Shown: positions 4,423-49,779 of the stretch, piece by piece
How positions within the stretch are numbered: the stretch's first letter is position 1
Layout of the letters: every line of letters starts with the position of its first letter
Assembly (NCBI GenBank): GCA_958296065.1
Contig: CATQHX010000025.1
Span: 124,001 to 188,000, forward strand
Source of the DNA: Vicinamibacterales bacterium
GTDB taxonomy: Bacteria; Acidobacteriota; Vicinamibacteria; Vicinamibacterales; UBA8438
Direction: 5' to 3'
Length of the DNA: 64,000 nucleotides
Notes under the pieces: generated by a model
Databases searched by the model: none
What the model saw: only the letters and a program-made list of their open reading frames with translations
What the model was told of the DNA's origin: nothing
Position numbers and translations under genes: made by a program

Positions 4423-4521
4423 AATCGCGTCTTCGATGCTGTCCCGCTAAGCCCGACAATCGTCGCCTGCTGCGACTCCGATTGCCTCCCAACCGGCCTG
4501 TCTGGCAAGTCGGACCGTCTG

Positions 4522-8864: not shown

Positions 8865-9377
8865 CTAGACGGAGAACTCCTCCAGTTCCCGCCCGCGCAG
8901 CCTCGCCACCTCGACCGGATCCTTGAGCCCCGCGAGGCCTGCGAACGTGGCGCGCACGACGTTCTGCGGATTGTCGGAGCCGAGGGACTTGGTCAGGATG
9001 TCGTGAATCCCGGCCAGTTCGACAACCGCCCGCACGGCGCCCCCGGCGATGATACCGGTTCCTTCCGGCGCTGGCTTCAACAGGACGCGCCCGGCCCCGA
9101 ATCGACCGAGGATCGGGTGTGGAATCGACGTAGCCTGCAACGGCACCCGGATCAGGGCCTTCTTGGCTGCCTCGATGCCCTTCTTGATGGCCGACGGGAC
9201 CTCCTTGGCCTTGCCGACCGCGAAGCCGCAGTGGCCTGCCCCGTCCCCGACGACCACCAGCGCACTGAAGCTGAGGTTCTTGCCACCCTTGACGACCTTG
9301 GTGACCCGGTTGATGGAAACGACCGCATCCTTCAGGTCGAGCACCGTCTGGTCGATCTTGGCTCGTGTTTCGCGCAT
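8865..9377 (-). CDS. rpsE: 30S ribosomal protein S5
   Basis: S5 is part of the decoding-fidelity and mRNA-entry region. 170 residues. The N-terminal double-stranded-RNA-binding-like domain contains [20 protein letters not shown] and [17 protein letters not shown]. The C-terminal domain contains [19 protein letters not shown]. The ATG at 9377 is separated from the rplR stop by 136 bp. That is unusually long for this operon and is occupied by the dispersed repeat at 9407-9513. Confidence 0.97.
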
Positions 9378-9406: not shown

Positions 9407-9513
9407 CCTAGCGCCCCGAAACGCCTCGCTGGCTCGGCGTTTCGGCCCATCCCGTCCTCACCGCAACCTTGCGCCCCGGATCTCCGCTTCGCTCCGTTCT
9501 GCGGCGCAAGCTC
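9407..9513 (-). repeat. Dispersed palindromic element, full copy A (107 bp)
   Basis: Read on the minus strand, this starts GAGCTTGCGCCGCAGAACG directly after the rplR stop and ends at CTAGG, 29 bp before the rpsE start. It contains two inverted repeats. The first pairs CTTGCGCC with GGCGCAAG. The second is a perfect 10-bp pair, CCGAAACGCC (9416-9425) and GGCGTTTCGG (9436-9445), with a 10-nt loop. The same 107-bp arrangement recurs inverted at 49673-49779, and the second half recurs at 22188-22229. No coding capacity is apparent. Confidence 0.85.
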
Positions 9514-9888
9514 CTAGAACTCCAGCCCGCCCTTGCGGGCCGCCTCGGCGACCGAACGCACCCGCCCGTGGTACAGGAAGCCGCCGCGGTCGAACACGAC
9601 GCGGGTCACGCCTTCCTTCAATGCCCGTTCCGCCACGATGGCTCCGACGATCCGGGCGCCTGCCATGTTCCCACCTTGCGCCCCGTTGTCGAACCGTCCC
9701 TTGACAGCCGGCTCGGTGCTCGATGCCGAGGCTATGGTACGCCCCGCGCGGTCATCAATCACCTGCGCCGAGATATGCGCCAGACTTCGGCTCACGGCGA
9801 GCCGCGGGCGCTCCGGCGTCCCGCTGACGCGTTGACGCTGGCGCAGCCGCACCCGCGTGCGGCGGTCTTTCTTCGTCTTGACTCTCAT
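9514..9888 (-). CDS. rplR: 50S ribosomal protein L18
   Basis: L18 binds 5S rRNA in the central protuberance. 124 residues starting MRVKTKKDRRTRVRLRQRQR. The RPRLAVSRSLAHISAQVIDD segment and the C-terminal FDRGGFLYHGRVRSVAEAAR are diagnostic. It begins 3 bp after rplF and ends directly at the dispersed repeat. Confidence 0.97.
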   Translation of the reverse strand: MRVKTKKDRRTRVRLRQRQRVSGTPERPRLAVSRSLAHISAQVIDDRAGRTIASASSTEPAVKGRFDNGAQGGNMAGARIVGAIVAERALKEGVTRVVFDRGGFLYHGRVRSVAEAARKGGLEF

Positions 9889-15981: not shown

Positions 15982-16097
15982 TGGCTCGCTTCCCGATTCC
16001 TGCCTGCTCCCAGCCCGTCAACCGCCGCCCGCGGCTCCGACTGCCGCCCCACCAACCCTCGCGGAGCAGTTCTGCACCGTCCTGCGGCACAGACTTG

Positions 16098-18157: not shown

Positions 18158-19345
<1,188 letters not shown>

Positions 19346-22187: not shown

Positions 22188-22229
22188 CCTAGCGCCCCGA
22201 AACGCCGCGCTGGCTCGGCGTTTCGACCC
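22188..22229 (-). repeat. Dispersed palindromic element, half copy C (42 bp)
   Basis: Minus-strand sequence matching the second half of the 107-bp element. CGAAACGCC (22198-22206) pairs with GGCGTTTCG (22217-22225), and the loop and flanks are also alike. In this half it differs from copy A at only a few positions, including the loop-side base next to the stem. The first half (GAGCTTGCG region) is missing. It lies between the rpsL stop and the rpsG start. Confidence 0.8.
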
Positions 22230-22237
22230 GTTCCTTC

Positions 22238-22612
22238 CTACGACTTGGGGCGTTTCGCCCCGTACTTCGATCGACTCTGCTTGCGGCCGGCGACGCCTAC
22301 CGTATCCAGGGTCCCGCGCACGACGTGATACCGCACACCCGGCAGGTCCTTCACGCGACCCCCTCGGATGAGGGCCAGCGAGTGCTCCTGCAGGTTGTGT
22401 CCCTCGCCGGGAATGTAGCTCGTCACCTCGATGGCGTTCGTCAACCGGACCCGAGCCACCTTCCGGAGTGCCGAATTCGGCTTCTTGGGCGTCTGGGTGA
22501 ACACGCGGACACAGACACCCCGCTTCTGCGGACAACCCTGCAGGGCCGGGCTCTTCGTCTTGTTGACGGCCCGCGCGCGTCCCTTGCGGACAAGCTGGCT
22601 AATCGTCGGCAC
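22238..22612 (-). CDS. rpsL: 30S ribosomal protein S12
   Basis: S12 is the decoding-fidelity protein and streptomycin-resistance locus. 124 residues from a GTG at 22612 ([20 protein letters not shown] follows the start). AGGAAG lies 5 bases upstream of that GTG, and it aligns with the family start; in-frame codons to 22666 do not. [18 protein letters not shown] keeps the lysine of the streptomycin-sensitive form. First gene of the str group, 324 bp after rpoC. Confidence 0.97.
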
Positions 22613-35383: not shown

Positions 35384-36571
<1,188 letters not shown>

Positions 36572-48745: not shown

Positions 48746-49672
48746 TCACGGTCTCGGAGCGGCCTCTCCCGCCGGGGTGGTCCGAGCCTCCAGGGGCGAC
48801 GCACCGCGCAGTCCCGCGAGGGTTACGGGCGCGTACTGCGCAGGCACCTCAACCGCGAAGGCGGCCGGATGGAGCACCGTGTTCATGTTGACCCGCGACA
48901 GGCTCGCGGCCAGATCGGTCCCTCCCCGGGGGCCGTCCACCCGGATCCGGAAACGGCGCGGCAGCCCGCGCATGTGCTCCGAATACTCGACGGTGAGGCC
49001 GCCGCGGCGACCCGCGACAATCACCTGCCCGCCTCCCGGGTCACGCACATAGGCCGTCGTGCCGCCCTGCAATTCCACCGCCACCGACCCGTCGGGGTAG
49101 CGCCGCGCCGCAGTGGCGACCGGGGACCGCTCGAGACACCCGGTCAGCAGAGCGTGCACGTCGCTCGGCCCGAGCGCCAGGCCCGCCAGCGCATGCAGCA
49201 CATCCGCCGGCCGTGCGTTGCGCACCACCTGTCGATCTCGCGGTAGCAGCAGAGTCGCCTGGTCGTCCCGCGCCACAAAGATGAATACGGGCGCGCCGAA
49301 CGGAGCAAGCGCCTCGATCCGGAGCGACGCGGGACGCTCCGCCGCGGCCCGCAAGCGGGTCCGGCGCAGATTCGTGTCGCCGGACCGGCCACCAAGCACG
49401 AGGAGGAACTCCATCGTGCGGACGCCGCGGCACGGCGCCGTGACGCGTTCCCAGAGCGCGGCGTAGTCGGAAAGCGGCGTCCCCGCACCATCCGGCAACT
49501 CGATGCCGCGCCGCGCCGGGGCGCATCCGGCCGCGATCAATGCAACGCCGAACACCAAGTTGCGGAATAGGCGAAGTCCGGCGGAGGCACGAGCCGGCGC
49601 ACGCCGCACGTCGTCGAAGGCCGGTGCGGGTTGCGCGACGATCGGAGCCACAGGCGACGATTGCCGGGCCAT
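48746..49672 (-). CDS. LolB-like outer-membrane lipoprotein
   Basis: 308 residues from the ATG at 49672. A hydrophobic segment ending LIAAGC (Cys50) looks like a lipobox. It would fit better as a signal peptide if the GTG at 49609 is the start, which puts the Cys at 29. The middle (RTRLRAAAERPASLRIEALA, then APFGAPVFIFVARDD) and the GLALGPSDVHALLTGC stretch resemble LolB and related carriers. The order lolB-ispE-prs also holds in E. coli, which supports the call. The assignment is by pattern and context. Confidence 0.65.
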   Translation of the reverse strand: MARQSSPVAPIVAQPAPAFDDVRRAPARASAGLRLFRNLVFGVALIAAGCAPARRGIELPDGAGTPLSDYAALWERVTAPCRGVRTMEFLLVLGGRSGDTNLRRTRLRAAAERPASLRIEALAPFGAPVFIFVARDDQATLLLPRDRQVVRNARPADVLHALAGLALGPSDVHALLTGCLERSPVATAARRYPDGSVAVELQGGTTAYVRDPGGGQVIVAGRRGGLTVEYSEHMRGLPRRFRIRVDGPRGGTDLAASLSRVNMNTVLHPAAFAVEVPAQYAPVTLAGLRGASPLEARTTPAGEAAPRP

Positions 49673-49779
49673 GAGCTTGCGCCGCAGAACGCCGCGAAGC
49701 GAAGTGCTGCGGCGCTGGGTCATGGAGCGGGGGGATGGGCCGAAACGCCCAGCCGGCGAGGCGTTTCGGGGCTCTATGG
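49673..49779 (+). repeat. Dispersed palindromic element, full copy B (107 bp)
   Basis: Plus-strand copy, inverted relative to copy A at 9407-9513, with the same length and order of parts. It starts GAGCTTGCGCCGCAGAACG. The first inverted repeat here is GCGCCGCA with TGCGGCGC. The second is the same perfect pair, CCGAAACGCC (49740-49749) and GGCGTTTCGG (49760-49769). It fills the space between the LolB-like start and the TPR gene, and contains the TPR stop codon (49774-49776). Confidence 0.85.

Follow-up and report, generated by a model that had tools for sequence, protein, structure and literature searches.

RIME1 of Rhizobium and Bru-RS of Brucella are elements of about 105-110 bp that contain two palindromes. 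The RUP element of Streptococcus pneumoniae, about 107 bp long and present in about 100 copies, is an IS630-Spn1-derived MITE (PMC2229807). Within the IS630 family, ISY100 duplicates TA (PMC2170065), and IS630 prefers the TA in 5'-CTAG-3', that is, as Tenzen and Ohtsubo (1991) are cited in PMC2170065. GTAG REPs and BIMEs, which are associated with RAYT, are palindromic and high-copy, with paired hairpins and tandem arrays, and they often supply a TAG stop codon (PMC3733652).

The element described here lies between rplR and rpsE in the window, i.e., the whole 64-kb stretch of DNA that was analysed. Its likeness to RIME1 and Bru-RS is one of description; its consensus was unmatched in 72,556 plasmid records. 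With RUP it shares a length of about 107 bp, an intergenic, multicopy and non-coding character, and probably a TA target, an IS630-family mover having been proposed for RUP. The terminal repeats of RUP match a resident IS630, however, whereas for this element no matching IS was found in 2.36 Mb, and the element differs also in being GC-rich, in possessing two hairpins and in its strict CTAG target. The Shigella sonnei IS630, of the IS630/Tc1-mariner family, likewise inserts at TA with CTAG preferred, at least as it is portrayed in the citing paper; the element, though, is non-coding and its ends differ from those of the resident IS630 (GTGGTCCGTCAC). The above-listed traits of GTAG REPs and BIMEs are seen as well, but here with CTAG at both ends, a 106-bp unit, an empty site with duplicated CTAG/TA, and hosts which mostly lack RAYT. 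The element found no match in Rfam, nor among the plasmids, phages and IMG/VR viral contigs searched, and no description of it turned up in the literature searched. It appears to form a new family within a known class, the IS630-type miniature transposons.

The first-pass annotation had claimed a 136-bp rplR-rpsE spacer, which the gene coordinates bear out (Table 1), and within it a repeat at 9407-9513. The repeat is real, but those limits are off by a few bases, as the element spans 110 bp with the CTAG at either end included. Read on the minus strand, CTAG-GAG is followed by hairpin 1, a linker rich in G, hairpin 2 and finally GGCG-CTAG, with the left CTAG incorporating rplR's own TAG stop codon. 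Both of the claimed inverted repeats are present as hairpins, and the consensus folds of types I and II beat 200 shuffles (DNA z of -4.8 and -5.4, respectively, with 0/200 as good). A lack of coding capacity, also claimed, agrees with the analysis; a simple gene caller placed a spurious ORF over this copy.

Table 1. Coordinates, in the window, of the element, its parts, its neighbouring genes and its relatives.
Feature	Position	Strand	Remarks
rplR (ribosomal protein L18; PF00861)	9514-9888	minus	stop codon overlaps left CTAG
Type I element, full copy	9408-9517	minus	both CTAGs counted; inserted length 106 bp; empty site in congener G001 (L037)
TA within left CTAG	9515-9516	minus	rplR stop codon TAG = 9516-9514
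Hairpin 1 (CTTGCGCCGCAG ... GGCGCAAG)	9468-9510	minus	partly degenerate in this copy
Hairpin 2 (CCGAAACGCC-GAGCCAGCGA-GGCGTTTCGG)	9416-9445	minus	10-bp stem, perfect
TA within right CTAG	9409-9410	minus	
rpsE (ribosomal protein S5; PF00333/PF03719)	8865-9377	minus	start 30 bp downstream of element
Second full type I copy	49669-49777	plus	ends CCAT/CTAT
Half copy	22189-22247	minus	retains only hairpin 2, the right CTAG and a remnant of the linker
Family B single-hairpin repeat	49634-49669	plus	abuts second type I copy
Family B single-hairpin repeat	4450-4491	minus	
Family B single-hairpin repeat, degenerate	16012-16049	minus	

A distant copy in opposite orientation had been reported as well, and is found where the table gives it. 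The two copies are not nearly identical over their whole length (80% identity, 110 columns), though that description does hold for the conserved blocks (93% over 45 nt). The right end of this second copy falls on the TAG stop codon (49776-49774) of a minus-strand gene for a TPR protein. The half copy, the three family B repeats, the CTAG boundaries and the position of the rplR TAG within the left CTAG all are additions to the earlier account. Family B, CTAG-TCAGGCCCGGTTGGGCGGCAATCG-GAGCCGCAGGCGA-CGATTGTCGGGCTAG, is a single hairpin that occurs in many tiles and often is joined to hairpin 1. The window also contains two 1187-bp copies at 18159-19345 and 35385-36571 which are 99% identical and hold one 395-aa gene, probably a duplicated tuf.

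The element enters CTAG and leaves one CTAG per side. In congener G001 the rplR end is empty, reading TTCTAGGAGTCCGGG / GGAGTTCTAGGAGTCCGGGTAGCG with a single CTAG, located where rplR has its stop codon, while the filled site reads TTCTAG / GGAGTTCTAG, then 106 bp ending in CTAG, and then GAAGCCCGGG / GAAGCCCGGGTAGCG. The filled site is therefore longer by 106 bp, with a CTAG on either side. Two further filled/empty pairs (L027/L250 and L126/L192) likewise display a single CTAG in each empty site. As the rplR site is empty in G001, the element is transposable and not an RNA module fixed in the spc operon.

The contrary reading, which we consider very improbable, would be that spc and similar operons conserve the hairpins for a function as RNA or in cis-regulation. 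Folding that is far better than that of shuffles fits with it, as does stem covariation between subfamilies. So too does the genomic context, with depletion in divergent, i.e., promoter gaps and enrichment between convergent genes: among 76 copies between two called genes, 27 lie in convergent gaps (p 0.001) and 6 in divergent ones (p 5e-5), both relative to intergenic length, these counts resting on a simple gene caller whose 25 'overlaps' include spurious ORFs. That same pattern fits survival where harm is least. The first-pass suggestion of a conserved RNA module is not supported as the reason for the element's place in the spc operon, on three counts: the element is in 0/17 of the other genomes whose rplR-rpsE spacer was read, its orientation relative to genes is unbiased (26 same, 17 opposite, p 0.22), and Rfam yielded no match to it, with only tRNAs found in the window. 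Insertion sites furthermore are simply available CTAGs. Though 28 of 81 isolated elements have their CTAG in common with a TAG stop, stop codons are not preferred over other non-coding CTAGs among those 81 (p 0.58), and therefore it would be the enzyme that picks CTAG and selection that purges coding insertions. We see no evidence of a host function. An intrinsic terminator, which the earlier annotation had rejected, is rejected here also, there being no T-run.

Copies of this transposable element are numerous, dispersed, in part tandem, and patchy across genera. The search for further copies that had been proposed was run on the element-bearing genome (6.47 Mb in 83 contigs, with a completeness of 94.9%) and, at three or fewer mismatches, gave 204 left-end and 157 right-end matches, versus 0 (left) and 3 (right) for reversed-pattern controls. 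The DNA that was read came to 2.36 Mb, about 37% of the genome, consisting of 1.56 Mb of tiles picked for elements, with the window included, and 0.80 Mb of tiles not so picked. Matches in the former set number 104 for type I, 58 for type II and 28 for family B, and those in the latter 14 altogether, both roughly fitting a genome total of about 200 copies. Tandem copies show a period of about 106, with one CTAG common to neighbours.

The target itself is rare. In the 1.56-Mb set CTAG occurs 427 times versus 1482 expected from trinucleotides, with 160 of the 427 at element ends, a share that is inflated since those tiles had been picked for elements; the unselected tiles contain 233 CTAGs, 8 of them at elements. 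Over the window alone, CTAG is strongly avoided (14 versus 68 expected from shuffles), and 3 of those 14 are at element ends.

What is duplicated upon insertion may be judged from 153 isolated copies from several genomes. Their left four bases read C in 142, T in 120, A in 140 and G in 147, and their right four C in 138, T in 128, A in 120 and G in 124. The fourth-base G is thus retained more often on the left than on the right (147/153 vs 124/153, p 4.5e-5), and of the 27 copies that have lost G from the fourth position on the right, 24 still have it on the left. These counts favour a duplication of TA alone, in which case the outer C and G come from the target, whereas G and C on the inside are the element's own. 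All empty sites that were read are CTAG, where a TA and a 4-bp duplication look alike.

Our likeliest reading, which we hold to be probable, is that the element is a MITE moved in trans by an IS630/Tc1-mariner-type transposase. Insertion would be into CTAG, with only the central TA being duplicated, and the terminal G and C of the element would recreate CTAG inside the duplicated TA. As the inner bases recreate CTAG, every copy would be a fresh target, which would explain both tandem and mixed arrays. At rplR, the insertion would have struck the CTAG made by a Phe codon plus stop (TTC TAG), and the duplication of TA restores the stop codon, leaving the gene intact. Survival of a copy would require a CTAG that is non-coding or at a stop codon, and also distance from promoter regions. 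The mobilising enzyme presumably belongs to the IS630 group of DDE transposases and has the terminal sequence GGAGCTTGCGCCGCAGAA as its binding site.

Several observations speak for this IS630 reading. A resident IS630 (PF13358; L243:5893-7108) sits exactly in CTAG, with one CTAG common to it and a copy of the element, and the IS630 ends in L243 and L360 all read CTA|G, that in L360 being CTA|GTGGTCC. Related elements of 117 and 157 bp (L196 and L172, respectively) possess CTAG ends along with true inverted repeats, GAG(C/T)(T/C)TGCGCCG(C/T)AG, that have the terminal sequence in common with the element. The 157-bp element (L172:3873-4029; 15/16 inverted repeats), on a contig (58% GC) from the MAG of a gammaproteobacterium, splits an Eco57I/TaqI-like restriction-methylase gene, the frame of which, in our reading, is continuous across one CTAG. 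Terminal inverted repeats are clear in these two elements and in solo hairpin 1; a point against the reading is that in the 110-bp unit they are poor for a DDE element, since its right end (TAGCGCCCCGAAAC, read inward) matches its left end (TAGGAGCTTGCGCCGCAGAAC) only given a 6-base offset.

The mobiliser is inferred, as the search for an autonomous element whose ends match came up empty: an autonomous IS with GGAGCTTGCGCCG ends was absent from the 2.36 Mb (about 37%) of the genome, from the other loci that were read, and from the viral contigs, plasmids and phages searched. An all-against-all repeat comparison of the tiles gave no multicopy IS bearing the element's ends, and a search for genes repeatedly adjoining copies turned up only ordinary paralogous families. 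Other CTAG-associated elements are present besides. A 146-148 bp MITE (L230:15905-16052, L324:9937-10082 and L340 near 778) has CTAG ends and inverted repeats GTGGTGTGTC, which are close to the resident IS630 ends, and a further CTAG-flanked inverted-repeat element with ends CAG(C/T)CCGTGG is at L354:11034-11199, as well as in L075 and L090, of another genus.

An unlikely though conceivable substitute is that the MITE owes its movement to some other family of DDE transposases, one making a true 4-bp YTAR duplication. The model for it would be a resident 1.96-kb PF01609 IS, with inverted repeats ACGGAAGTTTCA, which is flanked by CTAG/CTAG at L213:2949-4919 and by CTAA/CTAA at L348:3395-5366; it is because this IS, along with two or three copies of the element (CTAT/CTAT, TTAG/TTAG), resembles or displays 4-bp duplications that such a family is to be entertained at all. 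The terminal repeats of the PF01609 IS nevertheless are unlike those of the element, nor does a 4-bp duplication predict the above-noted keeping of the left G by copies lacking the right one.

The first-pass annotation had compared the element to REP/MITE-type non-autonomous elements. Its non-autonomous character stands, given intergenic copies, an empty site and covariation between subfamilies, but a REP associated with TnpA-Y1 does not. Movement of a REP/BIME-like element by a single-strand Y1 transposase (RAYT or IS200/IS605-like) recognising the hairpins and cleaving at CTAG, with the enzyme since lost, is in our estimation distinctly improbable, even though it would account for the two subterminal hairpins, the poor terminal repeats, the compensatory changes in the stems and the tandem units, and even though the element supplies TAG stops as do GTAG REPs (PMC3733652). 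Y1_Tnp is absent in 9 of 12 element-bearing genomes (G001, G002, G003, G011, G018, G123, G124, G125 and G126), while element-free relatives do carry Y1 genes. In the other three, G121 and G127 have one weak Y1 match each and the check for a REP-associated gene found, in G000, only an IS200-type fragment. The tag, moreover, is CTAG at both ends of a 106-bp unit rather than an unpaired GTAG/CGTC at one end of a 20-40 bp palindrome. Y1 elements also are not known to duplicate target bases. The IS200-type TnpA fragment (L034:65-1809; G000:C10 near 178 kb) lies beside an IS110-like transposase gene and apparently is interrupted by it. An IS91/Helitron-like (Y2 HUH) mover was rejected: Y2_Tnp is found in G000 but in none of the element-bearing G002, G003 and G011.

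The conserved loop of hairpin 2 and its compensatory stem changes are not accounted for by a DDE mechanism alone. Second hairpins are of at least three kinds (I, II and B), all keeping the loop GAGCC..GCGA, and across 43 aligned copies four pairs of hairpin 2 are altered on both sides with pairing kept. As these changes are mainly one subfamily switch, they indicate a maintained palindrome but few independent events; the covariation that was named as a check at first pass is present between subfamilies, in the form of a few such switches. With type I alone RNAalifold proposed a pairing of the element's two ends, with no compensatory change; with subfamilies added and the two-hairpin structure specified, compensatory changes appear. 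Pairs changed on both sides are not in excess (7 vs 6.3 in shuffles), while percentage paired, cells changed on both sides and covariation score all are above shuffles. Hairpin 1 occurs solo too, as a palindrome of terminal sequence with CTAG-like ends (L251, L276 and L277), and may represent a collapsed pair of terminal repeats, and the 110-bp unit may have arisen when hairpin 1 became fused to another hairpin bounded by CTAG. It is possible, though doubtful, that these instead form a modular hairpin class, with a shared hairpin 1 and interchangeable second hairpins whose stems change in compensation around a constant GAGCC..GCGA loop, a class which is recognised structurally by an undescribed CTAG-specific, non-Y1 enzyme and which travels between distantly related, co-living bacteria.

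Within its own family the element is dense in genera g1 and g9, while a few further genera have scattered or weak matches; among 120 genomes covering the order, the others yielded none. Congeners and a sister genus are thus filled with copies too. Across a phylum sample of 297 genomes it is in 2 of 167 genera, g1 and g129, the latter of a distant family. Named carriers are Acidobacteria MAGs, Thermoanaerobaculia, Holophagales, Vicinamibacteraceae and Candidatus Multivorans, hosts which we take to be largely sponge-associated. Two contigs of Gammaproteobacteria MAGs match as well, of which L168 (67.5% GC) may be mis-binned, while L172 looks like a genuine gammaproteobacterial contig. An abundant, apparently undescribed MITE family is added to Acidobacteriota MAGs. 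Its patchiness in distant genera, along with a gammaproteobacterial relative, suggests exchange among bacteria sharing a habitat, probably sponges, and essential operons such as spc can tolerate its insertion because the target, CTAG/TAG stop, is rebuilt. Elsewhere in the tiles, L241:11347-16033 and L269:6794-11478 are 99.96% identical over 4.7 kb and reach contig ends, i.e., they likely are an unmerged assembly overlap.
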